From Mariprofundaceae bacterium (GTDB lineage: Bacteria; Pseudomonadota; Zetaproteobacteria; Mariprofundales; Mariprofundaceae): DNA of 34,156 bases. Location of the stretch: positions 1 to 34,156 of the forward strand of contig JAUZRG010000201.1 in assembly GCA_030950585.1 (NCBI GenBank). The letters are read 5' to 3'. Numbering within the stretch: the stretch's first letter is position 1; the number at the start of each line of letters is the position of its first letter. Both the position numbers and the translations under genes were made by a program. The notes beneath the pieces are model-generated. The model was not told the origin of the DNA. It did no database searches and saw only the letters and a list, made by a program, of their open reading frames with translations. Below, piece after piece: positions 674 through 30,858 of this stretch.

Positions 674-1567
674 TTACTCATTGCTCACAACCCAACGACT
701 CACCATCGCTAATTTTTCCGCGCCTAACAATTCACTTAATTGTTGTTTGGTTTTTGTTGGTTGCTTACTTTCAGAAAGCGTCTGTATTTGATCGTACCAC
801 GCGCTCTGAAAACTAGCACTTGGCTGATAAGAAACCACTCCGCTGGCTAAAAAATCTGCTGAACGCTCTAAGGGATCTAAAATAATGCTTACAAACCATT
901 CATATTGCACATCTTTTTTAAGATGCACGCCTAAAGCCTTTAAATCAATGGCATGAATACCTGCATGATTGGGTGCAGCTATTTCCATCATGATCAAGGG
1001 TTTTGCTTGCCTTGGTGCAATGATACTAAAGACTATTTTTTGATGCCAGTCAGAAGAAATATAATAATAAAGGGTCGGCTGATCATGCATGGATACGCCA
1101 ATACGCTCAGGTGCAATCGCTACCATACGTTCAGGCATCTCATCTTGAACAACTTCAGCAACCGCAACACCACGCTGCAAGCCTCTTTGTAGGCCACGCT
1201 GTAAGCCTCTTTGTAGACCACGCTGCAAGCCTCTTTGCAGACCACGTTGTAAACCTCTTTGTAGGCCACGCTGTAAGCCTCTTTGCAGACCACGTTGTAA
1301 ACCTCTTTGTAGGCCACGCTGCAAGCCTCTTTGCAGACCACGCTGTAAACCTCTTTGTAGGCCACGCTGCAAGCCTCTTTGCAGACCACGCTGCACAGAA
1401 GCTTGTTCGGATGAAGACACACCCGCTTCTCGACGACGCTTATCAGTCGTCATGCTTTCTTCTTTTGACAACAATTCACCTTTAGACGCAACATCACTTG
1501 CCCATGCAGGTGAAAAACAACAAATAGTAAATATCACAATAGACGATAATATCATACGAACAAACAT
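674..1567 (-). CDS. Exported DUF928-like protein with (QRGL)18 repeat
   Basis: Start chosen at ATG 1567 (MFVRMILSS, 297 aa) because AAGGAG lies 6 bases upstream; the longer reading from 1594 would overlap the previous gene. Residues 1-23 form a signal peptide ending near AWA. Residues ~58-130 are 18 tandem Gln-Arg-Gly-Leu units. Residues ~150-260 match the DUF928 pattern that I know from cyanobacterial proteins: PTLYYYI, then a beta-rich stretch, KKDVQYEWFVSIILDP, and LERSADFLASGVV. DUF928 has no established biochemical role, but in cyanobacteria it often sits with CHAT proteins and haemagglutinin-type secretion genes, which matches the neighbours here. It starts 10 bases after the CHAT gene stop, so it is the third gene of the transporter-CHAT operon. 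The repeat adds a strongly basic linker not expected of the domain itself. Family call is good; function unknown. Confidence 0.8.
   Translation of the reverse strand: MFVRMILSSIVIFTICCFSPAWASDVASKGELLSKEESMTTDKRRREAGVSSSEQASVQRGLQRGLQRGLQRGLQRGLQRGLQRGLQRGLQRGLQRGLQRGLQRGLQRGLQRGLQRGLQRGLQRGLQRGLQRGVAVAEVVQDEMPERMVAIAPERIGVSMHDQPTLYYYISSDWHQKIVFSIIAPRQAKPLIMMEIAAPNHAGIHAIDLKALGVHLKKDVQYEWFVSIILDPLERSADFLASGVVSYQPSASFQSAWYDQIQTLSESKQPTKTKQQLSELLGAEKLAMVSRWVVSNE
1171..1394. repeat. 12-bp tandem repeat (organised as nine 24-bp units) encoding QRGL
   Basis: Units of the form aagcctctttg(c/t)ag(a/g)ccacg(c/t)tg(c/t) start every 24 bp at 1179, 1203, 1227, 1251, 1275, 1299, 1323, 1347 and 1371, with a partial copy in front. 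Each 24-mer is two 12-bp subunits, giving 18 Gln-Arg-Gly-Leu repeats on the minus strand. Because 12 is divisible by three and no subunit contains a stop, other frames on both strands are also open here, which creates spurious ORFs (for example 1111-1485 on + and 1120-1422 on -). Changes in copy number would lengthen or shorten the linker without changing frame. Confidence 0.95.
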
Positions 1568-1577
1568 AACCAACTCC

Positions 1578-3770
1578 TTACAACCAGTTACCAATTAAAA
1601 TAAAAGCGCCCCAGTAAGCTGGGTGCCAAAAACGATCTTGTTGAATCAACGCAAGTTGGGCGGTTTGTAAAGCTTTTGCTTTAGACACCCCCTCTTGCTG
1701 TAATTTTTTATAAAAACGTCGAATAAGCTGTGATGTCGCTTCATCATCCACAAACCACAATGATGCCAAAGCACTGCGCGCACCTGCTTGAATGGCAATG
1801 CCAGCCAAACCCATCGCAGCACGCTCATTACCCATGGCCGTCTGACAAGCACTCAGGGTCAATAATTCTAAAGGTTCACGGTTATAACGCCCTAAAGCAA
1901 TCAATTCTTGTAGTCGATTCATGTTAATTTTTTCATCATAGGTCAACACATAACTGGTTTCAGGCTCACCAGAAAACACACCATGTGTGGCAAGGTGCAA
2001 TAAATTATACTCATTGCTTTCCAACTTCTCTTGCAAGTTTTTGGTCTTAAACTGTTTATTCTCTAGTAAGTCAGCCCCAAACATCGCACTCACAGCACTC
2101 ACTTCTTTGGCAATACTGGGTAGTTCTGAGAAATTTTGCACAGCATCGGACAAACCAAGCACCAAAGCTTTGATGTTTTTCTTATTCATTGGATGTGGAT
2201 TGGTCAACGTCAAACCCGGTGTGGTTGCCAGTGCAAAACGCTGGATTAAATAACGATCTCCATCATGCAAGGCCGTCATCGGAACCATACGCAAACTACC
2301 ATCAGGCACGAAAACCAAGGTATTAATTTGATGTTTTTTCAATTGCGAAAGTAAAGGCTTGATGAGCCAATTATCTAGTTGTTGGGCTTCATACAAAAAC
2401 AAGTTATTGGATCGTGTTTGCAAGTGTTCACGAAACAATTTCACGGTTTTATCTAATTTTTCTTGTGGAATCGGTTGTGACCACTGGCTAATTTGATCAC
2501 CAATACCCAACAACATGACCAAACGATCTTTCAACACAACAGGGTAAATAATCGCTGTTTGCTGATCGACATTGTCCAGCAAAGCTTGCTGTGAGTTGCT
2601 TAAATCAATGCAATCACTGGATAAATAATCTTGAATTTCCAAGCTTTTCATGTTTTCGATACTACTACGCGCCTGGCGTAACAATTCTTGTTTATCCACA
2701 GCTTCAGACTCAAGCTCTGCTTGCTGCAACAATGCATCTGCAAGCTCCATATATACAGGACGAATATGCGTATTAAAAGGACTTTCTGCTTTACGTAAAC
2801 CTTTGAGCAGTGCTGTTCGGATTGGGTTTAACGTATGAATGGATTTCTGATAAGCATCAATGGCCTCCAATAGCTGACCTTGCATCATCAATAAACGTGC
2901 ATATTGCCACTGCCAACGATAAAGTAATTCTGCACTGGCTTCTTGTTGCGCAAAAAACACCGCACGCTGATTCAATTTCAAAGCATCTTTCACATTCTTA
3001 TCTTCTTCGTATAATGCAGCCAAATAGCCATATGCTTGTGAAAGTGATGTTGCCTGACTTCCACTTTTGGCAGCTTTTAATGCCATATTCAACACTTGGT
3101 GCTCGGCTAAAAACCAATCTTCTCCCGACTTTTCTGTTTGTCGGATTTGGTGCACTAAACGAGATAAGGCAAGTAGTTGTCTTGCTGAGAATCTCAAGTC
3201 TGACTGCAACAAAACGAGCATCGTTTTTAATTTATTTTCACTTTCAAGTTGCTCTTTTTCTTTCCAAAGTAAACGAGCTTGATTCATCATCGCTTGCAAC
3301 AAAATAGGGTGTTGACCTTTCACACCTGTACTTAAATCAATACTTTCTTGAAATGCAGCATGTGCATAAGCATCTTCACCCGCAATGGCCGCAAGGTTGG
3401 CAAAATTATTCAGCGTTGATGCCAACAAAGGAGGCTGTTCCATATCTCGAGCCAACACCACCGCTTCAGATAAAAGAATGGCTGCTTTTTCCCAATGATG
3501 CAGCTGTAAATGCAAATCACCCAACTGACTCACAAATTGCACATAGAGCTGATCGCTATACACCTTTTTCTTTGATGCTTGCGCTTTCTTTATTTTTTCT
3601 TGTTGCACCAAAAGCTCTGACAAAGCCTGTAGGTGCAAGCCTTTCTTTTGCAAATGATCCGCTGCATACATCGCTCGCTCTAAGGACTTATTCTCAGTGC
3701 TCTCCAAGCACATCGCTGTCTGAAAAGAAAAGAGATAACAACATAAAAACAATAAGATTCGTTTCATCAT
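1578..3770 (-). CDS. Exported TPR-CHAT domain protein (caspase/separase-like peptidase)
   Basis: 730 aa. A signal sequence (MMKRILLFLCCYLFSFQTAMC) is followed by helical TPR-like repeats over roughly residues 25-400. A CHAT domain occupies ~450-730. The CHAT histidine is in LLHLATHG (His ~596) and the cysteine in LTLSACQTA (Cys ~642); further conserved pieces are FVPDGSLRMVPMTAL, GLAGIAIQAGARSALASLW and HPAYWGAFILIG. The Cys-His dyad is intact, so protease activity is plausible. CHAT belongs to the caspase/gingipain/separase clan. The start overlaps the end of the transporter gene by 4 bases, indicating translational coupling, and the DUF928-like gene follows after 10 bases. Export to the periplasm or cell surface is inferred from the leader. 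The cysteine in TAMC is a poor lipobox, so an anchored form is less likely. Substrate unknown. Confidence 0.9.
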   Translation of the reverse strand: MMKRILLFLCCYLFSFQTAMCLESTENKSLERAMYAADHLQKKGLHLQALSELLVQQEKIKKAQASKKKVYSDQLYVQFVSQLGDLHLQLHHWEKAAILLSEAVVLARDMEQPPLLASTLNNFANLAAIAGEDAYAHAAFQESIDLSTGVKGQHPILLQAMMNQARLLWKEKEQLESENKLKTMLVLLQSDLRFSARQLLALSRLVHQIRQTEKSGEDWFLAEHQVLNMALKAAKSGSQATSLSQAYGYLAALYEEDKNVKDALKLNQRAVFFAQQEASAELLYRWQWQYARLLMMQGQLLEAIDAYQKSIHTLNPIRTALLKGLRKAESPFNTHIRPVYMELADALLQQAELESEAVDKQELLRQARSSIENMKSLEIQDYLSSDCIDLSNSQQALLDNVDQQTAIIYPVVLKDRLVMLLGIGDQISQWSQPIPQEKLDKTVKLFREHLQTRSNNLFLYEAQQLDNWLIKPLLSQLKKHQINTLVFVPDGSLRMVPMTALHDGDRYLIQRFALATTPGLTLTNPHPMNKKNIKALVLGLSDAVQNFSELPSIAKEVSAVSAMFGADLLENKQFKTKNLQEKLESNEYNLLHLATHGVFSGEPETSYVLTYDEKINMNRLQELIALGRYNREPLELLTLSACQTAMGNERAAMGLAGIAIQAGARSALASLWFVDDEATSQLIRRFYKKLQQEGVSKAKALQTAQLALIQQDRFWHPAYWGAFILIGNWL

Positions 3771-5389
3771 AATACCTGCGCTGATAGTTCTAAGTGAATA
3801 CCGCTATCTTGTAAGCTGTGACGACCATCGCGACTCACTTTCTGTAGTGGTTTAGCACCATAAATTTCAAATTGATAGGATGGGTTTATTTGCCAACGCA
3901 AGCCCAAACCAACACTTGCCAACGAGTGCGCACCAACATCCACACTTCCAAACTTATTCCATGCATGCGCATAATCAAAGAAAGGCGCGAGACTCACTTC
4001 ACCATCCGAAGATGCGAGTCCGACATAGGGTAGTTTCAATTGAAAAATAGGAACGCGCCACTCCGCACTAAAAAGAACAGCATTATCCATCGTCCATTGA
4101 TTTTCACGATAACCACGAACCGTGTTTCGTCCACCCACGGCAAACTTATCCACTGCCAATAAGCTATCATTACTCCAACGCACATGCGTTCGCACAATGC
4201 TTTGACTATTCCACAACGACCAACGCTCTACCCACTGACTTTGGCCAAGCCAAGTCACAAAACGACCATCTGCACTATTATAAATACCTGGATCCAAACC
4301 AATGGACAGCTGAGAATTGACTGCAATCACCCTTGATGCCGTATGGTATGCCCATGTTTGACCCAATAAAAAAGCATGAGTGCTAATGCGGCCATTTTGC
4401 ACACCCACTGAAAAAGAAAAAGGCACACCCAACAATGAAGTAAAGCTGTTTTTATGTTCATAAGCTGCGGACAGCGACACATCATGGTGTTGATTATGCC
4501 ATAGAGGCTGTTCAAGCATCAGCCGTTGCGATTGTGAATGACTACGAATAGACAACGCCTTAAAGGCCTCAGACACCACTAAGGAGTGACTCGAAGAAGC
4601 CTGAAAAGACCAAGCCGTTCGCGCCGCATTCAGTGTCTTTCGATACAGTAAGTTATAATCTTTCAAGCCCGCAGAAAGACCAAAGTCCAAAGCCAAACTA
4701 TTGCCATAACCTGTTAAATTAAGGTGTTCGACATGCAGCGTCGAGTGCCAATATCCTAAAGAAGGCGCGCCATAATTATTCGCAAGCACATGCACACGCC
4801 ACGGACTTGTCTCTTCAATTTTAAGGTCTAGCAAAGCCTCACCTTGCACTTGGCTAGGGTTTAATTGTGCATGTACCACAGCAATACGAGGATCCTGTTT
4901 TAATCGCTTAAGACCCAGCTGCAAGACCTGCATATTCAATACACCATCAAGCTTGGCTTCTCGCCATAAATAGTCTTTAATATAAGCACGTTGTAATCTT
5001 TTTTGACCATGAGTGTGAATCTGTTTAACACGCCCTTCCACCACATGAAAAATAATATGACCATCTTTAATTTCTTGGTCTTTAAGCAAAACACCTGAGT
5101 TCAAATAACCTTGGCTAATATAAAGACGTGAAAGATTTAAGCGCAGTTCTTGCAGCTCGCTTGCAGACACAACACGACCTTCATAAGGCAAAGCAAGCTG
5201 ATGTAATACCGCATCACTGATAATACTGTTGCCCACAAAACTAATTTTATTCACGCTAAGCTGTGACACGGATGACAGACGATTTTGATCTTGTTTTTCT
5301 AACGATGGCAACAATGTTTCCGCCTGTAAAATAACAGGAAAAACACATATTATTATCATTAAAAATAAACGTATCGTATGGATATACAC
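3767..5389 (-). CDS. Two-partner secretion outer-membrane transporter (TpsB; ShlB/FhaC/HecB family)
   Basis: Forms the outer-membrane pore that secretes its TpsA partner. I place the start at GTG 5389 because GGGGAG lies 5 bases upstream and the product then begins with a clean signal peptide (MYIHTIRLFLMIIICVFPVILQA); the longer frame from ATG 5440 has no ribosome site and adds 17 residues. The protein is then 540 aa, close to the usual size. After the signal comes a POTRA-type region (ISFVGNSIISDAVL, SRLYISQGYLNSGVLL, GHIIFHVVEGRVKQI), then a beta-barrel with VRGYRENQW and FAVGGRNTV, the conserved loop-6 VRGY motif of the Omp85/TpsB superfamily. It ends in a hydrophobic barrel strand. It is divergent from the adhesin gene and is the first gene of an operon with CHAT and DUF928-like genes. 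Confidence 0.93.
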   Translation of the reverse strand: MYIHTIRLFLMIIICVFPVILQAETLLPSLEKQDQNRLSSVSQLSVNKISFVGNSIISDAVLHQLALPYEGRVVSASELQELRLNLSRLYISQGYLNSGVLLKDQEIKDGHIIFHVVEGRVKQIHTHGQKRLQRAYIKDYLWREAKLDGVLNMQVLQLGLKRLKQDPRIAVVHAQLNPSQVQGEALLDLKIEETSPWRVHVLANNYGAPSLGYWHSTLHVEHLNLTGYGNSLALDFGLSAGLKDYNLLYRKTLNAARTAWSFQASSSHSLVVSEAFKALSIRSHSQSQRLMLEQPLWHNQHHDVSLSAAYEHKNSFTSLLGVPFSFSVGVQNGRISTHAFLLGQTWAYHTASRVIAVNSQLSIGLDPGIYNSADGRFVTWLGQSQWVERWSLWNSQSIVRTHVRWSNDSLLAVDKFAVGGRNTVRGYRENQWTMDNAVLFSAEWRVPIFQLKLPYVGLASSDGEVSLAPFFDYAHAWNKFGSVDVGAHSLASVGLGLRWQINPSYQFEIYGAKPLQKVSRDGRHSLQDSGIHLELSAQVL

Positions 5390-5606
5390 TCTATCTCCCC
5401 AATAAAACACTCTTTCCAACACCAAAAAAACAAACATCATAAAAGTATGATATGGGCTAGCATACTCAAAAAAAGTCAGATACCATAACCTGTTTATAAC
5501 CGTCTAAACCTTTCATTTCTATAATCGCATACTTTGCAAGAAAGACTGTGTTTTGTAAGGTACAGCTAAAGACACACCTTTAAATGATTATTGAAGGAAA
5601 GAACTG
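5390..5606. promoter_or_regulatory. Divergent control region between tpsB and tpsA
   Basis: About 217 bp separate the two opposed starts and must hold promoters for both the transporter operon (-) and the adhesin (+). A possible but weak sigma-70-like pair for the adhesin is TTGCAA followed 16 bases later by TAAGGT, around 5534-5561. The minus-strand ribosome site GGGGAG is at 5395-5400. No strong operator palindrome was seen. Shared regulation of secretor and substrate is an inference from the layout. Confidence 0.4.
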
Positions 5607-8558
5607 ATGCCACATGCTATTCCATTTCATTTACTAAAAACGACCTTAATGATCGTTTTACTCCTTCTCACAGTGCAAGCCTTGCATGCCGAAGCCATTT
5701 ATGATGGTAGTATGGGTGCACAAGGACAGTTATCTGGCAACTTTATTGTACCTGCCAGCGCAGGGCAAACACAAGGCAACAATTTATTTCATAGCTTCTC
5801 TGATTTTCATGTGCGCACGGGTGAAAGTGCGACCTTTCAGGGTGCATCGACCATTCAAAATGTTATTAGCCGTGTCACAGGAGGAACGTCTTCAACCATT
5901 GATGGTTCGATTGACACTGCAACAGCCATGCCTAATGCTAATTTCTACTTTGTCAATCCAGCTGGTGTTATTTTCAACAGCAATGCATTCCTCAGCGTCG
6001 GTAAATCAATTCATATTTCAACAGCGAATTTCCTGCGCATGGCCGATAATCAACAGTTCTTTTCTACCCCACAAGCGGGCGAAGTTTTGAGTGCATCCGC
6101 ACCTCAATCTTTTGGATTTTTGGCCAATAACATAGGTTATCTTCAACTCAATGCAGCTCAAATAAACACACAAGGCTTAGAAACATTATCGCTTACAGCA
6201 TCTAATATCCAACTTCAAAACACATCTCTGAGCACCCCCAACGGACACATCGACATCGCCAGTGTGGCTTCTACAGGTGAAATCACGAGAACAGCAACAA
6301 ACAACTTAGACACCACTAGTTTTCAGCAAATGGGTAATATCAACCTGCTCAATAGCCAAGTAAGTAGCAGCGGGACTGGCGGCGGCAGTATCTTTATTCG
6401 CGGTGGTCAATTTGTCGCTGACAACAGTGACCTTTCTGCTGAAAGCTTTGGAACTCTCGCCGGCGGCAACATGAATATCAGTGTGGATAACATGCTATTT
6501 AGCAACGGAAGTAGTTTATTTGGTGTCACTAATGGCACAGCTCGCGGTACAGATATTAGCATTCAAGCCACGCAAGATATTTCTTTTTCAGGGCTTACAT
6601 CCGCAAGCACCAAGCAAAAAGATATAAGTCTAGCTGGTATTTACCTTACTTCTATAAACACAGCAGTCAATGCGGGTGATGCTGGTAATTTACAACTAAA
6701 TGCACAAAATATTAGTTTTCAGCACGGTGCAGCAATTTCAGCCAATTCATGGGGTGGTGGCAATGGTGGTGATGTCAACATCAACGCCACTACAAATGTA
6801 GTCTTTTCAGGCCCCAGTTCTTATATAGAAATTGGCCCTCATAGTTTGTTATATGCAGGACAAACAGGCATCTTAACCATCAACTCAGACACCACACATT
6901 TTAAAAATGGTGCAACCATTCAAGCTGGAAGCTACGGTTTAGGTCAAGCTGGTGCGGTGATCTTAAACTCAACACAAGCGATTCAATTCAGTGGTCAAAG
7001 TACAGAATATGACTCTAGTGGTATAGTTACAGGAACATTTGGTACAATAGCTGGGGCAGGTAATGGTGGTTTAATTAGCATACAAACAATGAATCTGAGC
7101 ATGGCCGATGGTGCCTATATTATAGCAAACACAATCGGTGCTGGTCATGCTGGAGACATAGGAATAAATGCCTCTAACCTGATCACCCTACAAGGCACGA
7201 ATGGATTTGGTTTACCAACTCTTATTGGCTCCAGTACGAACGCCACCACAGCTGGTATTATTGGTGGTAATGCGGGTCTAGTTCTAATCTCTGCCAATCA
7301 ACTAGAGCTTCTTGATGGCGCACGCATTGTAAGCAGTGCTGTAGCGGATGTAGCAGGAACCCAAGTTGGCACAGCTGGATACATTATCATCAAAACCACC
7401 GGCCTTTTACGCATTGATGGCTCTAATCCCTATGGTCAGTACGATGGCATCTTTGGTTCTGCTCTGTACTCACGCACCAATAGCAATGGTGGAAGCATTA
7501 AAGGCTCTGGTTATATTCAAGTGAATACAGGTAGCCTTGAACTTAGTAACGGTGGTGTGATTTCAGCCAATACCAATACTAACACCGATGCAGGCTTTAT
7601 AGATATCACAAGTCCACTTATTAGCTTCTCTGGCTCTGCCAGTAATACAGGTCTACTCACCACACCCAACACAGCAACTCTCACGAAAACACCATCTTTT
7701 TTACCTAGCTCCCCCATAAAATCCGTCTCAAGTGGCATCTATGCAGACTCCGTTCATAGCTCAAATGGTGGGAATAGTGGCTACATCACCATCACAGGCC
7801 AAAAAATCATTATGGATAATAGCATCATCAGCTCTTCATCAAGTAACACAGGGTTCGCGGGTGATGTTAACATCACGGGATCACAATTATTTATGAAAAA
7901 CATGAGCAGCATTAGAACATCTAGCAGCTACACAGGTTTAAATGCAGGCAATGCGGGTTGGATCAGTTTAAATTTCACGGACGAAGTCCGCATGCAATCA
8001 AGCTCTAAGATCACGACTGAATCCGTTAATAGCGGTGGCGGAGGCATCACATTAAACACCACCAATATTTTACGCATGGAAGACAGCACCATCAGTAGTA
8101 ATGTGGCTGTGGGTGGTGGCAATGGTGGGGACATTAATATCGACCCTCTATTTGTCGTACTCAACAATAGCACCATCTCGGCCAATGCATTTGCAGGTGC
8201 TGGCGGCAATATCACAGTGGTTGCAAATAATTTTTTACAATCGACAGATAGCCGCATCTCTGCCTCATCAGCTTTAGGCATTAATGGTAATATCAATATC
8301 GATTCACCCAATATCAATATTGCACAAGACTTAGAACACTTACCTGCACGCTTCATGGATACGCAAGAATGGAGCAGTAAAGTATGCCGATCAGACAATC
8401 AAAGTAGCTTTGTCATTCAACAAGGTGAAGCAAGTGCTTACACATCCAGTGACTGGCAGCCAAGCAACACTTTTAATCCCGCTCTCACCGCACCTCAGAA
8501 GAACACTGTGCAACAACAAAAGAAATACCCACAGTGCCATATCATTACCTCAATATAG
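5607..8558 (+). CDS. TpsA exoprotein, filamentous haemagglutinin-type adhesin
   Basis: 983 aa, preceded by GAAGGAAAG at a suitable distance from the ATG. The signal peptide (residues 1-28) ends LHA. The TPS secretion domain follows at ~30-150, recognised by NNLFHSFSDF, NVISRVTGG and FYFVNPAGVIFNSNAFLSVG, the NPxG-type motif of haemagglutination-activity domains. Residues ~150-900 are Gly/Asn/Ser/Thr-rich repeats (GNGGDVNI, NAGDAGNL, GGNGGDINI, STISANAF) of the kind that build a right-handed beta-helix. The only two cysteines are near the end (about 927 and 977). It is presumably secreted by the divergent TpsB and shown at, or shed from, the surface. The repeat style resembles cyanobacterial haemagglutinin-like proteins more than Bordetella FHA, and it is short for the family. 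Target unknown. Confidence 0.92.
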   Translation: MPHAIPFHLLKTTLMIVLLLLTVQALHAEAIYDGSMGAQGQLSGNFIVPASAGQTQGNNLFHSFSDFHVRTGESATFQGASTIQNVISRVTGGTSSTIDGSIDTATAMPNANFYFVNPAGVIFNSNAFLSVGKSIHISTANFLRMADNQQFFSTPQAGEVLSASAPQSFGFLANNIGYLQLNAAQINTQGLETLSLTASNIQLQNTSLSTPNGHIDIASVASTGEITRTATNNLDTTSFQQMGNINLLNSQVSSSGTGGGSIFIRGGQFVADNSDLSAESFGTLAGGNMNISVDNMLFSNGSSLFGVTNGTARGTDISIQATQDISFSGLTSASTKQKDISLAGIYLTSINTAVNAGDAGNLQLNAQNISFQHGAAISANSWGGGNGGDVNINATTNVVFSGPSSYIEIGPHSLLYAGQTGILTINSDTTHFKNGATIQAGSYGLGQAGAVILNSTQAIQFSGQSTEYDSSGIVTGTFGTIAGAGNGGLISIQTMNLSMADGAYIIANTIGAGHAGDIGINASNLITLQGTNGFGLPTLIGSSTNATTAGIIGGNAGLVLISANQLELLDGARIVSSAVADVAGTQVGTAGYIIIKTTGLLRIDGSNPYGQYDGIFGSALYSRTNSNGGSIKGSGYIQVNTGSLELSNGGVISANTNTNTDAGFIDITSPLISFSGSASNTGLLTTPNTATLTKTPSFLPSSPIKSVSSGIYADSVHSSNGGNSGYITITGQKIIMDNSIISSSSSNTGFAGDVNITGSQLFMKNMSSIRTSSSYTGLNAGNAGWISLNFTDEVRMQSSSKITTESVNSGGGGITLNTTNILRMEDSTISSNVAVGGGNGGDINIDPLFVVLNNSTISANAFAGAGGNITVVANNFLQSTDSRISASSALGINGNINIDSPNINIAQDLEHLPARFMDTQEWSSKVCRSDNQSSFVIQQGEASAYTSSDWQPSNTFNPALTAPQKNTVQQQKKYPQCHIITSI

Positions 8559-17147: not shown

Positions 17148-17813
17148 TTAGGCATTCTCTGCAAGCTCGCGCAATTCTGAAATCGCTTTTGCATAATCAG
17201 GCGTATTATATACAGCCGAACCTGCAACAAATGCATCAGCACCAGCAGCAGACGCTGCTGCCATAGTCTTCAAGTTAACACCACCATCAACTTGCAACCA
17301 TGCATCACTGCCTGCGTCATCTAGCATTTTTCTTGCTTCTGCGATTTTATTGGTGACTGCATGGATATAAGACTGTCCACCATAACCAGGGTTAACACTC
17401 ATCAATAAAACCATATCAACACAATGTAATACACTGGCAATACTTGAGATAGGTGTACCGGGGTTTAAGCTTACACCAGCTTTTTTACCCAAAGAACGAA
17501 TCAATTGAAGTGTGCGTTCAAGATGAACGCAGGCTTCTTGGTGAACCGTGATGATATCTGCACCAGCAGCAGCAAAAGCTTCGACTTGGCGATCAGGTTC
17601 AACAATCATAAGGTGAACATCCAACACTTTTTTAGTGTGTGGACGAATAGCCTTCACAATATTATCACCAATCGTGATTGGAGGCACAAAACGACCGTCC
17701 ATGACATCAACATGGACCCAGTCGCAGCCGCCTTCATCGATAGCCACAATTTCTTGGCCTAGTGCTGCAAAATCAGCAGAGAGTATAGAGGGAGCAATAA
17801 TTACTTTTTTCAT
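17148..17813 (-). CDS. rpe: Ribulose-phosphate 3-epimerase
   Basis: 221 aa, the usual length. The enzyme interconverts D-ribulose 5-phosphate and D-xylulose 5-phosphate in the pentose phosphate or Calvin pathway. The TIM-barrel signatures are all present: IAPSILSADFA at the N-terminus, HVDVMDGRFVPPITIG (metal-binding His and Asp), VHLMIVEPD, MSVNPGYGGQ and QVDGGVN (phosphate/metal region). No clear ribosome site is visible before the ATG. It is on the same strand and just upstream of petABC but is probably ended by the hairpin at 17096-17125. No other sugar-phosphate genes are near, so a CO2-fixation role cannot be inferred. Confidence 0.95.
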   Translation of the reverse strand: MKKVIIAPSILSADFAALGQEIVAIDEGGCDWVHVDVMDGRFVPPITIGDNIVKAIRPHTKKVLDVHLMIVEPDRQVEAFAAAGADIITVHQEACVHLERTLQLIRSLGKKAGVSLNPGTPISSIASVLHCVDMVLLMSVNPGYGGQSYIHAVTNKIAEARKMLDDAGSDAWLQVDGGVNLKTMAAASAAGADAFVAGSAVYNTPDYAKAISELRELAENA

Positions 17814-18089
17814 AGAGGCGGGTTATACACTGTAAAGATACTTGTCGTCCAGTTTTTATCCATACACAAAAACGCAATATTAAGTAAAAACATTGCATAT
17901 TGATCACTTCCTAAGAAAAATAAAACAGCACCTTAAACATACTTTTAAAACACATTCACTTTCAATAGTTATAAGCTCATAAGACAAATATGCCTATTTA
18001 CAAGCATCATCACTTCGCTATAAGCTTCCGCTTGTCTCTTATTCGTCATAAGCAGACTTTCGGGGAAGGTTAACGGGGGAAATCAAGTT

Positions 18090-18497
18090 ATGGACATTCA
18101 GCCTAAAGCAACGGGACATGAAAAACGTATCAAGCTTTTACTTGATGCAGTCTGTAAAAAACTTAGTTTTACAGCCATGCTCTTAGCAGATCAACAAGGT
18201 TTTCCTGTCGCGTGTTCAGGTGATTTAAAAAGTGTGGGCATTGCTGCCATTGCACCCGAGTGTATTCGCATGGGGCAAAGAGCCGTTCGTTTTGGTCAGT
18301 TCTCAGGTATTCGTTGTGTGACCTTAATGCTTGAAGGTGGTCATATCATGATCATCAAAGAAATTAATATTCAATCACAAAAGTTCATTGTTGTAATTGA
18401 TACTAAGACTGTTCCTAATGTCATCAATAGTTTATTTCGTGTATTATCAGAACGCATAGATCTTATCTTAAATTCTCATAAATATTATTCCCACTAA
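18090..18497 (+). CDS. Roadblock/LC7-like protein (first of the cluster)
   Basis: 135 aa with no signal peptide. The core (FTAMLLADQQGFPVACSG, then ECIRMGQRAVRFGQFSGIRCVTLMLEGGHIMIIKEI, then KFIVVIDTKTVPNVINSLFRVLSERI) follows the alpha-beta Roadblock/LC7 pattern, in which a strand-turn-strand holding Asp-x-x-Gly precedes a helix and three more strands. Such proteins form dimers and commonly regulate small Ras-like GTPases (for example MglB on MglA) or act as scaffolds. No GTPase gene lies nearby. A GGGGGAAA ribosome site is upstream, a little distant. It is ~100 bp before the ODP gene and on the same strand, so a shared transcript is plausible. It is more diverged from the family than the third gene of the cluster. 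Confidence 0.7.
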   Translation: MDIQPKATGHEKRIKLLLDAVCKKLSFTAMLLADQQGFPVACSGDLKSVGIAAIAPECIRMGQRAVRFGQFSGIRCVTLMLEGGHIMIIKEINIQSQKFIVVIDTKTVPNVINSLFRVLSERIDLILNSHKYYSH

Positions 18498-18599
18498 TAT
18501 AAAGCCGTATCTGAATAGGTCTATACTCTAATAATAAAAACCAACTATCATCGCGATGGATCATCATTTTTCGATAGAAATATAAAGGAGAAATAAGTA

Positions 18600-19349
18600 A
18601 TGGCAGATATATTGTTTGAAAACGCTGAACATAAATGTGTGTTTTTTGAAGATTTTACCACTGGGGAAATGATCTCAGCAAACCAACATATGATTGTGCA
18701 TCAAGGCAAAGGTATTCTTCTTGATCCAGGTGGGCACAAAGTATATCCAAAAATCATGGAGGCCTTTCCAGAGTATCTTTCACCTATAGGATTAGAAAGT
18801 ATTTTCTTTTCACATCAAGACCCAGATATTGTTGCTTCGGCCAATGGTTGGTTGATGGTAACAGATGCCAAAGGCTATATTCCAGCCATTTGGAGACGTT
18901 TCTTAGCACATTTTGGTGTTGATGGCTCCAATATGTCTCGTGTTGTTGATATTCCCGATAAAGGCATGATTATCCCTTTGGGTGATTGTAATTTAAAAAT
19001 TATTCCTGCCCACTTCTTACACTCCTCTGGCAATTTCCATGTTTACGATCCTGTTTCAAAAATTCTATATACAGGTGATCTTGGTGCGTCCATGGCCGAG
19101 TATCGCTTTGTAGAAAATTTTGAAGATCATGTCCAATACATGATTGGTTTTCACCAACGCTATATGGGTAGCAGTGTTGCCTGTCGCTTATGGGTCGATA
19201 TGATTCGTGAATTAGATATTGAAACCATCGCACCGCAGCATGGCGCTATCTTTCAAGGCAAGGAAAACGTCAATAAATTTCTTAATTGGCTAGAGCAACT
19301 AGAAGTCGGCCCTGAGTTGATGAAAGATGTCTTTAAAATTCCATCTTGA
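18600..19349 (+). CDS. ODP-type di-iron metallo-beta-lactamase-fold protein (putative O2/Fe sensor)
   Basis: 249 aa, cytoplasmic. Metal ligands expected for flavodiiron-like MBL domains are visible: His72, Asp74 and Asp76 in FSHQDPDIV, His141 in AHFLHSSGNFH, Asp160 in YTGDLG and His214 in APQHG. There is no flavodoxin or rubredoxin domain, so it is not a complete flavodiiron oxygen reductase. The size and the HQDPD form match the oxygen-binding di-iron proteins (ODP) that have been described as oxygen/Fe(II) sensors in bacterial chemotaxis. A strong AAAGGAG precedes the ATG. It is flanked on both sides by Roadblock-like genes and no chemotaxis genes are in view, so its output here is unknown; the Roadblock partners are the obvious candidates. 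Confidence 0.85.
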   Translation: MADILFENAEHKCVFFEDFTTGEMISANQHMIVHQGKGILLDPGGHKVYPKIMEAFPEYLSPIGLESIFFSHQDPDIVASANGWLMVTDAKGYIPAIWRRFLAHFGVDGSNMSRVVDIPDKGMIIPLGDCNLKIIPAHFLHSSGNFHVYDPVSKILYTGDLGASMAEYRFVENFEDHVQYMIGFHQRYMGSSVACRLWVDMIRELDIETIAPQHGAIFQGKENVNKFLNWLEQLEVGPELMKDVFKIPS

Positions 19350-19394
19350 GTCGTTAATATATTTTGTAAAAACGAATAAAACAGGAGAAAGGAT

Positions 19395-19766
19395 ATGGTA
19401 ACAAAGCAAGATAAAATATTTAACGCCCTTGATGAATTAAAAAGTGCAACAACAGATATCCTAGGTTTAGCTGTTGTGAGCCCAGATGGGATGTTAATTG
19501 CTGACCGCTTAGCTGCTGGTGAAGGCGAAAAAGCCGCTGCTATGGGTGCTGTCATGGTCAGCCTTGGTAAACGTGTATCAACCACACTTAAAGCAGGTGA
19601 CCTACAAGAAGTTGCCATTCGTGGTGAAAAAATGACTATCCTTGTGTTTGATATTGAACATCATGCATCATTGGTTGTTGAAGTCTCTTCACGTGCCAAC
19701 ATGGGTCTTGTTTTATTAGAAGCAAGGGCAGCAAAAGATAGTTTACTTTCATTATTAACCAGTTAA
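19395..19766 (+). CDS. Roadblock/LC7 domain protein (MglB-like, third of the cluster)
   Basis: 123 aa, the size of a single Roadblock/LC7 domain. ILGLAVVSPDGMLIADRL is the typical first hairpin; EKAAAMGAVMVSLGKRV is the central helix; QEVAIRGEKMTILVFDI and ASLVVEVSSRANMGLVLLE are the later strands and helix. A clear AGGAGAAAGG ribosome site is present. It follows the ODP gene by 45 bases, before a strong terminator, so it closes the small operon. Expected role: homo- or heterodimer with the first Roadblock protein, regulating a GTPase or another partner encoded elsewhere. Confidence 0.88.
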   Translation: MVTKQDKIFNALDELKSATTDILGLAVVSPDGMLIADRLAAGEGEKAAAMGAVMVSLGKRVSTTLKAGDLQEVAIRGEKMTILVFDIEHHASLVVEVSSRANMGLVLLEARAAKDSLLSLLTS

Positions 19767-19813: not shown

Positions 19814-19855
19814 AAAACAAAACGCTCACGTATTGATACGTGAGCGTTTTGTTTT
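19814..19855. terminator. Strong bidirectional terminator
   Basis: A 20-bp perfect stem (AAAACAAAACGCTCACGTAT paired with its complement) with a 2-base apex, outer arms A-rich and T-rich. It sits between the Roadblock gene (+) and the outer-membrane protein gene (-), which converge here. Confidence 0.93.
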
Positions 19856-19873
19856 TATACAAACATCAACGAT

Positions 19874-20950
19874 TTAAAAACGAGTTGAAACACGCGCCAA
19901 GAACCAATTATCTGTGACTTGCTGAATACCGCCCGCATTTTGATAAAGAGGTATTCTATACTCAGCACTCGCAATCACACTCGGTGATATCACCCATTGA
20001 AAACCGGGTGCAATAAATACAGAAGTAATACCTGTGTTCGCAACATGATCAATCATAGACATCATTGGATTTTGATAGGCTACCTTGCCACTTTGTGCAT
20101 CAATACTTTGATCACTCGAATCTTTAGCAGCATAGATCAACTTCATGTCTAACTTGACGTTTAATGCTGAAGAGACACGATAACGAGAAGAAATGTCAAA
20201 ATTCAAGCGATTACCAAGCTTATAGCCCAAGTTATTGCGTGTATTAGCTTGATAGGTCAATGATGGATTAAATAACCATTGCGCACCACCATCTGCATGT
20301 TCACCCAAACCCATTGTACCATTGGCTAAAAACAAGAAATCATAAGATCCAGACCCTGCCTGCATCATCATATGTATCAAATCAGCATTGGCTTTTCTTG
20401 TGTCGTGTTTACCTGTCGGAACTTTTAAACCAAACCCCAAAGATAAACGCTTGCGTGTGCGGTATTCATCATCTTTATACACATCATGCAAATACACCAA
20501 GGACACATCACCCACGCCTTGAACCGTATCCATCGTTGTATTGTTAAAGCTCACATTACCCATCATTTTCATACCCATCTCCATCTTCATATCATTGATG
20601 AGATAAGGCACAGTCAAGACGACTGCACTTTCTTGATTAATACGATAAGCCGCATTCACCGAAAATTTCTGCATGACCATTTCTGTAGAACCGCCATACC
20701 TTGAGCCATTGGTTCTGGTGCTTAAGTTCTTTTGAATCACATCACGCAAAGCCACGGTGTTTAAGCCTTGTTTGATGGTTTTCATGGTCATATAATCATA
20801 TTGTGCTGTCACGCTAAGACCATTAGCACTTCCCACACCGTCAACACCTGCAGCAATACAACAAGATAGGCCACACTCACTGGCTTGCACAGCCGATATA
20901 TTAAATACAGCACTCGCCAAAGCAGCTGCTAAAATCATTTTCATATTCAC
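19874..20950 (-). CDS. Outer-membrane beta-barrel protein with Met-rich segment
   Basis: 358 aa from GTG 20950, chosen because AGGAG lies 8 bases upstream; the ATG two codons later is less well spaced. A signal peptide ends near VQA. It is followed by a cysteine cluster ECGLSCC and then alternating beta-strand sequence ending in ARVSTRF, whose final Phe is the usual barrel assembly signal. It resembles the broad 'transporter' family of outer-membrane barrels related to aromatic-degradation channel proteins; I cannot assign a substrate. Two Met-rich patches (MKMEMGMKMMG and HMMMQAG) are unusual and might bind copper or another soft metal; this is inference. The upstream Cys/His-rich exported protein is on the same strand with a 131-bp gap. 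Confidence 0.7.
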   Translation of the reverse strand: MNMKMILAAALASAVFNISAVQASECGLSCCIAAGVDGVGSANGLSVTAQYDYMTMKTIKQGLNTVALRDVIQKNLSTRTNGSRYGGSTEMVMQKFSVNAAYRINQESAVVLTVPYLINDMKMEMGMKMMGNVSFNNTTMDTVQGVGDVSLVYLHDVYKDDEYRTRKRLSLGFGLKVPTGKHDTRKANADLIHMMMQAGSGSYDFLFLANGTMGLGEHADGGAQWLFNPSLTYQANTRNNLGYKLGNRLNFDISSRYRVSSALNVKLDMKLIYAAKDSSDQSIDAQSGKVAYQNPMMSMIDHVANTGITSVFIAPGFQWVISPSVIASAEYRIPLYQNAGGIQQVTDNWFLARVSTRF

Positions 20951-26500: not shown

Positions 26501-28384
26501 TTGTTGTCATTAAGATTATTTTTATGTTTAATTATTTTAAGCCTAGTATCTTGCTCAAGCGGAGGTGGATCTTCTACCGCTAGCACCATCAGTGTCAAAA
26601 CAATCACTGGCACTGCTGCGGCAGGTCTCATTCATGATGCAACAGTGCAAGCCAACAACAACCTAGGTCAACTCATCCCATCTCCTGACAATAGCAACCC
26701 AACCACCACTGACCCACAAGGCCGCTACAGGATCAACTTAGGCCAATATACAGGTGAAGTTATCCTTGAAGTCACGGGTGGCATTTATGATGATGAAGCC
26801 ACAGGTTCGCCTCGAAGTCTGAGCATACCCATGCGTGCTGCCATTGGTTCCCTCACACAGCTTAACACGGTTATTTCTATCACACCGCTAACAGAAGTAG
26901 CTGTGCGCTTAAGTGCTGGAAACAAAGCTAATTTTGACAACAACAATACACTTGTTTCACAAGCTTTAAGTAATGGCTTAAACATCATCACACAACAACC
27001 AGCCAACTTGGCCAATCAAGCTCTCGCAACCACACAAGAAATTGAATATGCTGTGGTCTTAGCCACCCTTAGCCAACAAGAAAGAACCAATAATATCAAT
27101 TTAGATGGCGTCATTCGCCAAATCGAAGAAGATTTGAAAGGCAATGGTACAAACAACCAAGTTGGCATCATTGATCTTTATGCCCAAGGTTTATACAGCG
27201 CGGTCAACACCTTTTTAGCGGCTAGCAATACCGCACTCAACTTTGGCCTTACCGCCAAACAAACCAGCTTGGATAATATCCTAAGCAAAAACGTGATACC
27301 TACCACACCGCCTGCCACACCGCCTACCACACCGCCTGCCACACCGCCTACCACACCGCCTACCACACCGCCTGCCACACCGCCTACCACACCGCCTGCC
27401 ACACCGCCTACCACACCGCCTGCCACACCGCCTGCCACACCGCCTGCCACACCGCCTGCCACACCGCCTGCCACACCCCCTGCCACAACAGGCATGATGG
27501 TTGGCGCTACCTTTGCATCCTTCAACACCACCAACATGACCAATTGGGAACAAAATGTAGGCCATCGCATTCATCGTATACATCGCATGTATAACTTTTC
27601 CGCGCCTGCCTTCTTATGGACAGAAGTCGATAACACCATGGCTGCGGGTTACGATGTTATGCTCACCCTTGAACCTAGGTTCAATAATGATTTATCAACA
27701 CAAAGCCACTTAATTGATATTTATACAGGCGTACTCAATGCCACGCTTGACCAATCCATTAATGGTATTTTGGGTTTAAAAGCAGCTTGGCCCAATGCCA
27801 ATATCTTCATGCGTTTTGGCCATGAAATGAATGGTGATTGGTACCCTTGGGGCGGACTCAATGCTCACAATGGCAATACACCTCAAGACTATATCAATGC
27901 TTACCATCATATTGTTGATCGTTTTCGTGCCGCTGGCCTTGGTGCTAACATGGTGAAATGGGTATGGTCACCCAATGTTTGGTATCAAGATACCTTAACG
28001 CAGTATTACCCCGGTGATGCCTATGTGGATTATATGGGTTTAGCTGGTTTTAACTTTGGCCCCAACACCCTCCTACAACCCACCTTAGTTTGGCAGGATT
28101 TTAATACAATCTTTTCTTATTCCTACACATTATTAAGCACGACGTTTAAACAACCCATTATTATTGCTGGTATTTCCAGTGCTGAATCGGGTGGTAGCAA
28201 AGCCGCATGGATTGATGATACGGCACTTCAACTTAAAAATGGTTACCCACGTATTGCAGCTATCTTTTGGTTTGATGTTGATAAAACAGCAATAGGCGAA
28301 AACGATTGGCGCATCAACTCTTCGGTCACGTCTCTACAAGCAGCCCAACGCATGTATGGCGATACAACCTTATGGAAACCTTAA
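26501..28384 (+). CDS. Lipoprotein with Thr/Ala-Pro-Pro linker and GH26-like glycosidase domain
   Basis: 627 aa from TTG 26501, with GGGAG 5 bases upstream. Residues 1-18 form a lipoprotein signal (lipobox LVSC). Residues ~30-110 look like a carboxypeptidase-regulatory-type beta fold ([34 protein letters not shown]). Residues 268-327 are 15 tandem four-residue units of TTPP or ATPP. The C-terminal half (~330-627) resembles glycoside hydrolase family 26: [13 protein letters not shown] carries the predicted acid/base Glu442 and [10 protein letters not shown] the predicted nucleophile Glu562. GH26 enzymes mostly hydrolyse beta-mannans, but substrate cannot be assigned; exopolysaccharide trimming is also possible. 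It would be a membrane-anchored enzyme with a stiff extended spacer. Its stop overlaps the convergent purU stop by 4 bases. Confidence 0.85.
27302..27481. repeat. 12-bp tandem repeat, 15 copies, (A/T)TPP linker
   Basis: Fifteen units of (a/g)ccacaccgcct fill three 60-bp blocks. The first two blocks (27301-27360 and 27361-27420) are identical, showing a recent 60-bp duplication; the third consists only of ATPP units. Reverse-strand ORFs here are artefacts of the repeat. Copy-number change would alter linker length in frame. Confidence 0.95.
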
Positions 28385-29235
28385 AAGACCAAGGTTTTAC
28401 AACCATCGACAAGCACACGATCTTGTAGGTGACAAATCACCGCTCTAGCCAGCACCTGACGTTCGAGGTGCTGGCCAGTTTCTTTTAAACTATCTTTGCT
28501 TTGACGATGCGTAATGCGTTTCACACCTTGCTCAATAATGGGTCCCATATCTAATTCAGGGGTCACATAGTGCGCTGTAGCACCAATGAGTTTCACACCT
28601 TTATCATAGGCTTGCTGATAAGGATTTGCACCTCGAAAGGCTGGCAAAAACGAATGATGAATATTGATGATCTTTTCGGGAAAGTGGTTAATAAAGTTAG
28701 CTGATAATATTTGCATATAACGGGCTAACACCACCAAATCTACCCCCTCTAATAACTTTAAAGCCTCTTGTTCTGCTTGCTCTTTATTGTCTTTTTGCAC
28801 AGGTATTTCATAAAAAGGAATGCCAAAACGTTCTGTCGCTTGGCGCATATCGGGGTGATTGCTAATCACCATCGTGATGTCTGCATCCAACTCACCTTGG
28901 GCATGCCGCCACAACAACTCCATCAAAGCATGTTCAAACTTTGAAACCATGATTGCCATTTTCTTTTTCTTAGCCGCATAGTGTAACTGCCATTGCATCG
29001 CAAAGGGTTTAGCAACGGCTTGCCCAAAGTTTTTTTCTAAAAGAGGTCCAGACATATCTAAATCAGGGGTCTGGAACTCAAGGCGCATAAAAAAAGTACC
29101 ACCTTGCGGATCACTGCAATGTTGATCCAAATCCGTAATATTGGCACCATGATGATAAAAAAAGTTGGAAACTGCGGCCACAATACCGGGCTGATCTTCA
29201 CAACGAATCAATAATCGAGCTGAACTATCTTGCAT
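28381..29235 (-). CDS. purU: Formyltetrahydrofolate deformylase
   Basis: 284 aa from ATG 29235, preceded by AGGATAAGAG; this matches the usual ~280 aa, whereas the longer TTG frame from 29271 overlaps the neighbour. An N-terminal ACT domain (ARLLIRCEDQPGIVAAVSNFF) is followed by a formyltransferase-like catalytic domain with IINIHHSFLPAF (catalytic Asn and His) and ATAHYVTPELDMGPII (catalytic Asp). It hydrolyses 10-formyl-tetrahydrofolate to formate and tetrahydrofolate, balancing one-carbon pools and supplying formate for purine synthesis. The ACT domain presumably senses Met/Gly as in E. coli. It follows the AAA-like gene by 33 bases on the same strand, though the two seem functionally unrelated. 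Confidence 0.94.
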   Translation of the reverse strand: MQDSSARLLIRCEDQPGIVAAVSNFFYHHGANITDLDQHCSDPQGGTFFMRLEFQTPDLDMSGPLLEKNFGQAVAKPFAMQWQLHYAAKKKKMAIMVSKFEHALMELLWRHAQGELDADITMVISNHPDMRQATERFGIPFYEIPVQKDNKEQAEQEALKLLEGVDLVVLARYMQILSANFINHFPEKIINIHHSFLPAFRGANPYQQAYDKGVKLIGATAHYVTPELDMGPIIEQGVKRITHRQSKDSLKETGQHLERQVLARAVICHLQDRVLVDGCKTLVF

Positions 29236-29267
29236 ATCTCTTATCCTATATTTTAAACTTGACTTGA

Positions 29268-30815
29268 TCAAGCACGCTTTGCCTCAAAACCCACAATATT
29301 GCGCGCTTTGCTATTGAAGCTTACGCCCACCAGCCAAACCTCGCCTTCACCTGCATATTTCTCGGCGTAACCTTTGGCTTCGATTTGTGCCATCGCGCTA
29401 CCATCTCCTTCCATTTCCACAACTTTAAATTCGATGATGAAGATGCGCTTACCAAGTTTCACTATCACGTCGATACGACCTTTGCTAGTGGCATCTTCGG
29501 CGATCACTTCCAAACCAAGCGCGAGGAAATAACAATAAACAATGGAACAATAATAACCTTCGTAGTTTGCTAGCTGGTTGTTGCGGTACCAATCGTGTGG
29601 AATCGAGGCGAAAAAGGCGTGAAAAATATCGCGTAGCTCTTCTGGGTTACCTCTTTCCAATACATCGTAAAGGCGGTTGCAGTTGCGCTCTTGCGCCGAG
29701 CCATTGTGATTAAGCCAACGCAATAGCGAATCATGAAAACTGGTGCGCACTTCAAAATTAGGAAAGTCCAATTCGTAAGCAATCACCGAACCACGGTCAT
29801 GCCGTTGTTTGATGGTTAAATACCCTGTTTGAAAAAGCAATGCCTCTGGCTCAATGGTTTGCACATCAAAGCTGGAAAGCAACGCAGAACTGGCGCGAAG
29901 CCGTCTTAAATCCAGTGCCGATACCTGTCGCTCTTGCAACACACGCAATAAAAAAGAGGGGTTACCTGTCTCAAACCAAAAGCTACGAAATTCGCGTTCC
30001 TTCAAATAAAGCAACACATCAAAGGGGTTGTACACAGGCTCGCCATCAAAGCTGTAGCCGTTATACCAATGGCGCAGCTTCGTCATATCCACACCATCCA
30101 ACCAATCCACAAAGGTATGGCGCAATTCGGCATCGGTATAACCACACAAACTGGCATAACGTGGTGTGAGGGTGATGTCCTCTAAGTTATTGAGGCCACT
30201 AAACAACGACACCTTAGAGAACTTACTTACGCCTGTGAGTAACACAAAACGAATATGGCGATCAGAATCTTTGATGACCGCATAAAAGCCTTCTAAAGCA
30301 TCACGCACGGCAATAGCTGTTTCGTCACGTCCTGCGACTAGATTATCTAAAATCGGTTTATCATATTCATCAATAAGCAGCACGACAGGTTGATTAAACT
30401 TTTCGTGCAAGGCAAAAATGAGGTCTGAGAAACGACCTGGAATATCTTGTTCTTGGTTGAGATCTAAGTCATATTGTTCTTCATGCACACGCAACATATG
30501 GCGCAACCTAGAGTCTAATGCCTCACGACTATCCACCAGACCACTGCCAAAGCTAATGTGAATCACAGGAAAAGATTGTGACCAATCCCAATGTGGCTCT
30601 ATCGCCAAACCAGAAAATAAATCACCTTGACCTTTAAACAAAGAAACCAAGGTGCTAATCAACAACGACTTACCAAAACGGCGCGGGCGGGAGAGAAGAT
30701 AATATTTCCCGCTTTCCACCATTTGCCCAATCATCTCTGTTTTATCGGTGTAGCAATAACCTTGCTCCATCATTTCTGAAAAAGTTTGAATGCCTATAGG
30801 TAGTTTCTTACGCAT
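29268..30815 (-). CDS. AAA-ATPase-like protein with C-terminal PD-(D/E)XK nuclease-like domain
   Basis: 515 aa from ATG 30815 (GGGAG upstream); ATG 30839 would add 8 residues. The N-terminal part matches the AAA-ATPase_like family: LPIGIQTFSEMMEQGYCYTDKTEMI, then Walker A SRPRRFGKSLL, and a Walker B-like VVLLIDEYDKPI. The C-terminal part has GRIDVIVKLGKRIFIIEFKV, the D...ExK core of a PD-(D/E)XK nuclease fold (DUF1703 type). These proteins are widespread, often multi-copy, and lack a settled function; roles in mobile DNA or defence have been guessed from the architecture. No transposase or phage gene touches it here. Arch and motifs are clear, biology is not. Confidence 0.85.
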   Translation of the reverse strand: MRKKLPIGIQTFSEMMEQGYCYTDKTEMIGQMVESGKYYLLSRPRRFGKSLLISTLVSLFKGQGDLFSGLAIEPHWDWSQSFPVIHISFGSGLVDSREALDSRLRHMLRVHEEQYDLDLNQEQDIPGRFSDLIFALHEKFNQPVVLLIDEYDKPILDNLVAGRDETAIAVRDALEGFYAVIKDSDRHIRFVLLTGVSKFSKVSLFSGLNNLEDITLTPRYASLCGYTDAELRHTFVDWLDGVDMTKLRHWYNGYSFDGEPVYNPFDVLLYLKEREFRSFWFETGNPSFLLRVLQERQVSALDLRRLRASSALLSSFDVQTIEPEALLFQTGYLTIKQRHDRGSVIAYELDFPNFEVRTSFHDSLLRWLNHNGSAQERNCNRLYDVLERGNPEELRDIFHAFFASIPHDWYRNNQLANYEGYYCSIVYCYFLALGLEVIAEDATSKGRIDVIVKLGKRIFIIEFKVVEMEGDGSAMAQIEAKGYAEKYAGEGEVWLVGVSFNSKARNIVGFEAKRA

Positions 30816-30858
30816 GATGGATTCTCCCATGTCTGTCATATCTTAGTGCATTTAAAAC

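Follow-up and report, generated by a model that had tools for sequence, protein, structure and literature searches.

A diiron oxygen-binding protein accompanied by two classes of Roadblock proteins: a candidate iron/oxygen-sensing module in Zetaproteobacteria and other bacteria

What would an oxygen-binding diiron protein (ODP) be doing between two Roadblock proteins? The question is raised by a 34,156-nt stretch of DNA (the window), which is contig C115 in a 2.5-Mb, 99% complete genome of Mariprofundaceae (Zetaproteobacteria). The source organism is a member of this family that belongs to a genus other than Mariprofundus, and the closest named relatives of its ODP come from Mariprofundus, Ghiorsea and further Zetaproteobacteria. 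Three ORFs follow one another on the plus strand, where the earlier note had placed them: robA (18090..18497), encoding a divergent Roadblock-fold protein of 135 aa, odp (18600..19349), encoding a 249-aa member of the ODP family with a metallo-beta-lactamase fold, and robB (19395..19766), encoding a Roadblock/LC7 protein of 123 aa. The Roadblock-ODP-Roadblock arrangement described in that note holds, RobA being recognised by its predicted fold and both ODP and RobB by Pfam, and so does the strong terminator said to end the unit: a nearly symmetrical plus-strand hairpin at about 19814..19856 (-27.6 kcal/mol, z -8.4) separates the trio from a convergent gene (19874-20950, minus strand), which by eye has the look of an outer-membrane protein. 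A simple terminator scan did not return the 19814-19856 hairpin, probably because its stem runs into its own T tract. The intergenic region 17814..18089, located between robA and a divergent ribulose-phosphate 3-epimerase-like (rpe-like) gene (17148-17813, minus strand, annotated by eye), is presumed from its position to hold the promoter, and a promoter scan upstream of robA gave scores not above those of shuffles; cytochrome bc1 genes were recognised by eye beyond the rpe-like neighbour. No chemotaxis or GTPase gene was seen by eye on the whole 34-kb contig, in line with what had been noted for the surroundings of the trio. We consider that the trio would hold a diiron Fe(II)/O2 sensor that signals through a heteromeric Roadblock complex with a lineage-dependent output, and we give this reading a probability of roughly 60%.

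The sensor is the best defined of the three proteins. ODP matches Pfam family PF19583 over its full length (E 1.1e-70; 238 bits against a gathering score of 27.2) and is homologous from end to end with two PDB entries termed 'oxygen-binding diiron protein', 6qrq (E 2e-69) and 6qnm (E 1e-63), with which it shares 44-46% identity. H72, D74, D76, H138, D160 and H214 are invariant in an alignment of ODP with 6qrq, 6qnm and family members from several phyla, and we take these six positions to be the diiron ligands on the basis of the flavodiiron/metallo-beta-lactamase motif (H-x-D-x-D / H / D / H). All metal ligands that had been expected in ODP are thus present, six of six, and the site has been kept, not lost, in the aligned homologues.

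The two Roadblock proteins are recognised by different kinds of evidence. RobB matches Pfam PF03259 (Robl_LC7; E 1.1e-10, 41.5 bits with a cut-off of 23) and scores 13.9 bits against the NCBIfam MglB model, whose cut-off of 200 was set for a model built for one lineage. RobA gave no Pfam or NCBIfam family over cut-off and no PF03259 match, the Roadblock-fold family LAMTOR5 being reached at E 0.017. An AlphaFold2 model of RobA made with 22 relatives (pLDDT 89, pTM 0.82) has the predicted Roadblock topology, i.e., helix, two strands, helix, three strands, helix, and its top Foldseek match is Myxococcus xanthus MglB (E 3e-8, TM 0.67-0.72), with a Streptomyces Roadblock, Asgard Roadblocks and LAMTOR2 among the further matches. 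On the predicted structure, RobA can confidently be regarded as a Roadblock-fold protein closest to MglB and too divergent for Pfam. Aligning the RobA profile with that of RobB gave no useful information, the two barely matching; their kinship rests on the fold. The nearest experimental precedent for two such divergent Roadblocks occurring together is the MglB-MglC pair of M. xanthus, in which both proteins have the Roadblock fold, are less than 9% identical and form a 2:4 complex (PMC7949163).

Is the association of ODP with Roadblocks peculiar to this genome? For the survey, the 80 top-ranking genomic ODP loci of one scan were combined with another 13 taken from relatives, ORFs were called, iterated Roadblock profiles were run and an ODP tree was built; retrieval was pattern-based and started from one query, many of the genomes were MAGs and the tree was a quick one. 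A same-strand Roadblock gene was found within 250 bases of ODP, mostly at a gap of 4-60, for 37 of the sampled ODPs, and all 37 fall inside one clade of 49 rows (SH-aLRT 98), when the outlier L006 with its very long branch is ignored. Outside that clade none of the 44 sampled ODPs had a Roadblock neighbour, the retrieved flanks reaching up to 6 kb for 32 of these loci and about 1.4 kb for the rest. The difference between 37/49 and 0/44 corresponds to a Fisher p of 8.5e-16 when shared ancestry is ignored, and on the ODP tree the adjacency label changes 8 times, compared with about 30 times in shuffles. The clade spans Zetaproteobacteria, Myxococcota and other former Deltaproteobacteria, Nitrospirota, Acidobacteriota, Actinomycetota and one Acidithiobacillus MAG. 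Among 78 Zetaproteobacterial genomes ODP is present in 18 (genera g1, g8 and g9), and 15 of these carry the complete RobA-ODP-RobB trio; two of the other loci (L185, L187) are cut by contig ends, and the third (L186, genome G112) has ODP-RobB with no RobA frame upstream. The neighbourhood search for Roadblock-flanked ODPs that the earlier note had called for therefore found both the pair and the trio conserved, the pair in several phyla and the trio in most ODP-bearing Zetaproteobacteria.

A Roadblock tree, built from few columns and containing several long branches, places the ODP-adjacent Roadblocks of all phyla, RobB included, in one clade (35 rows, 97% SH-aLRT), even though this gene precedes odp in most phyla and follows it in Zetaproteobacteria. 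A separate clade (96) is formed by RobB', the MglB-like Roadblock of a GTPase module. RobA and 12 Zetaproteobacterial orthologues encoded upstream of ODP form a single clade, and the RobA clade (96) takes in also RobA', which comes first of the two Roadblocks in the GTPase module, and the second Roadblock at 13 loci from outside Zetaproteobacteria. At L057:5339-5989 a possible further Roadblock (E 1e-4) was considered doubtful and was left out of the count. Judged from the sequences, many ODP loci hold one B-class and one A-class Roadblock, and since RobA groups with the second Roadblock of the non-zetaproteobacterial loci, the bracketing in the window is the Zetaproteobacterial form of a wider pattern. 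The gene order in Myxococcota is Roadblock, ODP, a receiver/DUF4388 regulator, a membrane protein (with an OmpA domain at L045) and an A-class Roadblock, and in several loci of Nitrospirota, Acidobacteriota and Myxococcota type it is Roadblock, ODP, HD-GYP, in some a histidine kinase, receiver/DUF4388, ParA and an A-class Roadblock. DUF4388 is, we assume, the Pfam name for the PATAN domain. PATAN-domain regulators have been linked to MglA/MglB genes (PMC4316618). As far as gene content can tell, the constant core is a B-class Roadblock with ODP, often joined by an A-class Roadblock, and the output varies.

From the genes, their folds (one of them predicted), the metal ligands, the conservation across phyla, the Roadblock classes and the synteny we infer a physical complex, ligand binding, a direction of the signal, an output and a phenotype. 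The trio would act as a cytoplasmic sensory module, in which the non-haem diiron site of ODP would report the Fe(II)/O2 (or redox) status through a changed iron-oxygen state. This state would be read by a heteromeric Roadblock complex composed of the ODP-dedicated B-class RobB and the A-class RobA, by analogy with MglB that binds its paralogue MglC. The output in Mariprofundaceae would most likely be a module of RobA', RobB', D132, U211 and an MglA-type GTPase, with type IV pili or surface behaviour as the possible target of the module, and in Myxococcota, Nitrospirota and Acidobacteriota it may consist of receiver-DUF4388 regulators, HD-GYP proteins and ParA.

The earlier note had suggested that the output may go to a Roadblock heterodimer and so to a small GTPase, as a redox- or iron-responsive switch for polarity or motility; put more definitely, the RobA/RobB heterodimer would be a dedicated GAP or GEF of an MglA-type GTPase, and the Fe/O2 state of ODP would switch cell polarity or motility. 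What speaks for this is found mainly in Mariprofundus, where the cluster consists of RobA', RobB' (161 aa) and D132, a metallophosphoesterase gene on the opposite strand, RobA-ODP-RobB, often a protoglobin, U211 and an MglA-family GTPase; in 8 of the 12 ODP-bearing genomes of this genus (g9) the GTPase gene lies on the same strand within 5 kb of ODP. MglA is among the structure matches of this GTPase, and its G3 motif, TPGQ, lacks the usual Asp, a trait reported for the MglA family (PMC4316618). The genome of the window has such a GTPase as well, located on contig C59 with RobA', RobB', two D132 and U211 (L141:3927-9021). Two further MglA-like proteins of this genome, L142:8429-9052 (minus strand, contig C154) and L143:5039-5674 (minus strand, contig C104), were rejected as functional GTPases because they have lost the P-loop and TPGQ; these degenerate proteins are possible pseudo-GTPases. 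Within the genus Mariprofundus the GTPase is present in 11/12 genomes with ODP and 4/11 without it (p 0.009), but over all 78 Zetaproteobacteria the association is weak (13/18 versus 26/60, p 0.06), and in the Ghiorsea-like genus none was found. No MglA-family match was detected at 1e-6 in G112 and in four genomes that carry the trio (G081, G082, G087 and G094; the trio of G082 is cut at a contig end), and a search at 1e-3 left four Ghiorsea-type genomes empty as well. Reported completeness of the GTPase-less genomes ranges from 56 to 93%, and joint absence through incompleteness alone is unlikely because the product of the missing fractions is about 7e-5. Moreover, the GTPase module carries A- and B-class Roadblocks of its own and occurs without ODP in many genomes and genera, and no GTPase was seen near the Roadblock-ODP pair in the loci sampled outside Zetaproteobacteria, where the neighbours are of other kinds. 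The route from ODP through Roadblocks to a small GTPase, and the co-occurrence with MglA-like GTPases, are thus supported by synteny and statistics in Mariprofundus and do not extend to the pair in general; as an account of the trio as such, a dedicated GAP/GEF appears rather unlikely. At almost every Zetaproteobacterial locus examined, U211 is encoded directly ahead of the MglA-type GTPase (e.g., L040:7977-8609); its confident model (pLDDT 84) has no PDB match and its sequence no Pfam family over cut-off, and it is possibly a new fold or a GTPase partner.

A sensor that signals through a Roadblock complex, as we prefer, is also to be weighed against an ODP that would work as an enzyme scavenging O2, NO or peroxide, or as an iron store, with the Roadblocks as scaffolding or localisation factors and no signalling relay. 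ODP and flavodiiron proteins have a common fold and ligand pattern, as would suit such an enzyme. However, the Pfam search found no flavodoxin domain in ODP, which consists of the metallo-beta-lactamase-like core only and so by itself is no flavodiiron enzyme, and neither flavodoxin nor rubredoxin was noticed by eye in the conserved neighbour clusters. Protoglobin genes occur near ODP at six loci of Zetaproteobacteria and Myxococcota (L033, L036, L039, L040, L045 and L057), and L072:2477-3928 is a natural hemerythrin-ODP fusion whose ODP belongs to the Roadblock-linked clade; these partners favour an O2/iron input and would also suit O2 handling. ODP is said to stabilise an iron-peroxo species. 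At L033:6787-9496 (Mariprofundus erugo) three equal-scoring RobB copies alternate with two protoglobins, a tandem that reflects either recent duplication or an assembly effect. The entries 6qnm and 6qrq are presumably the ODPs of Treponema denticola and Thermotoga maritima. Against the enzyme or store stand the signalling neighbours in other phyla (receiver, histidine kinase, HD-GYP) and the ODP of T. denticola, a chemotaxis oxygen sensor that is genetically coupled to a cytoplasmic MCP (PMC7666581), and we regard this alternative as improbable. That ODP and Roadblock genes are neighbours by accident, or through inherited hitch-hiking with no functional link between them, is hardly credible, for although the 14 sampled Zetaproteobacterial loci represent one lineage, the pair is found in separate phyla, with altered gene order and matching ODP and Roadblock clades, and no Roadblock accompanies any of the 32 other ODP loci for which flanks as long as 6 kb were retrieved. 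The genome of the window holds two Pfam-detectable Roadblock genes, one of which adjoins its single ODP, and this scarcity, together with the recurrence across phyla, makes the trio more than a chance arrangement.

How does the proposed Roadblock-coupled sensor relate to known systems? It shares all six metal ligands with the chemotaxis ODPs 6qnm and 6qrq, yet these fall outside the Roadblock-linked clade that includes the window ODP, and the T. denticola protein has its genetic coupling with a cytoplasmic MCP, whereas that of the window ODP is with Roadblocks; no link of ODP to chemoreceptor or Che genes was seen on the 34-kb contig, and the one MCP gene of the genome is on another contig. 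The MglA-MglB-MglC/RomY polarity module of M. xanthus is similar in that RobA folds as MglB, two divergent Roadblocks occur together and an MglA-family GTPase is found also in the Mariprofundus cluster. It differs in having no diiron or gas sensor, according to the literature consulted, and the RobB clade stands apart from GTPase-linked Roadblocks, with no GTPase beside the window trio. Actinobacterial conservons (CvnA-D) likewise combine in one operon a Roadblock (CvnB), an MglA-family GTPase (CvnD) and a dedicated sensor (PMC4316618), but their sensor is a histidine kinase, and neither an ODP nor a second Roadblock class has been described for them. In the eukaryotic Ragulator (LAMTOR) heteromeric Roadblocks also connect an input to small GTPases, and RobA and RobB' weakly match LAMTOR5 and LAMTOR2, respectively; this resemblance is at the level of fold only, in a bacterium that has no lysosome or Rag GTPases.

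For the organism of the window some outputs are more plausible than others. Its genome has three PilT-family genes over cut-off and one MCP gene, and family searches gave no flagellin match and no DUF4388, which makes type IV pili under control of the MglA-type GTPase a reasonable target and a Myxococcota-type output unexpected; polarity or motility would be a putative output. The question is of interest because the genome paper of Mariprofundus ferrooxydans PV-1 reported very few chemoreceptors and left the coordination of motility with chemical gradients still to be established (PMC3179512). An Fe(II)/O2-type sensor with Roadblocks, and in Mariprofundus with an MglA-type GTPase, offers a concrete candidate here.

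The open-access literature that was searched contained no description of ODP with Roadblocks or of MglA in Zetaproteobacteria. The kinds of parts are known, and their combination, its conservation across phyla and the two-class Roadblock make-up appear to be undescribed in that literature. The trio thus looks like a widespread, apparently undescribed bacterial route to iron/oxygen sensing, iron-oxidisers included; it would add Roadblock hubs to the chemotaxis arrays in which ODP is already placed, and would provide the Roadblock proteins of prokaryotes with an input that can be identified physically. More tentatively, and at somewhat less than even odds, it may represent a new class of bacterial signalling, where a diiron sensor of Fe(II)/O2 acts on a hub of two Roadblock classes whose outputs can be exchanged (small GTPase, receiver-DUF4388 regulator, HD-GYP, ParA) in at least five phyla, and by which iron-oxidising Zetaproteobacteria would position themselves in opposing Fe(II)/O2 gradients.

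Elsewhere in the window, two regions were remarked by eye. A gene at 674-1594 (minus strand) encodes a protein in which RGLQ recurs in tandem about two dozen times, its neighbours being TPR-CHAT-like, ShlB/FhaC-like transporter and filamentous-haemagglutinin-like (1578-8558) genes, and at 28381-30839 (minus strand) a formyltetrahydrofolate deformylase-like gene adjoins a gene of AAA-ATPase/PD-(D/E)XK type.
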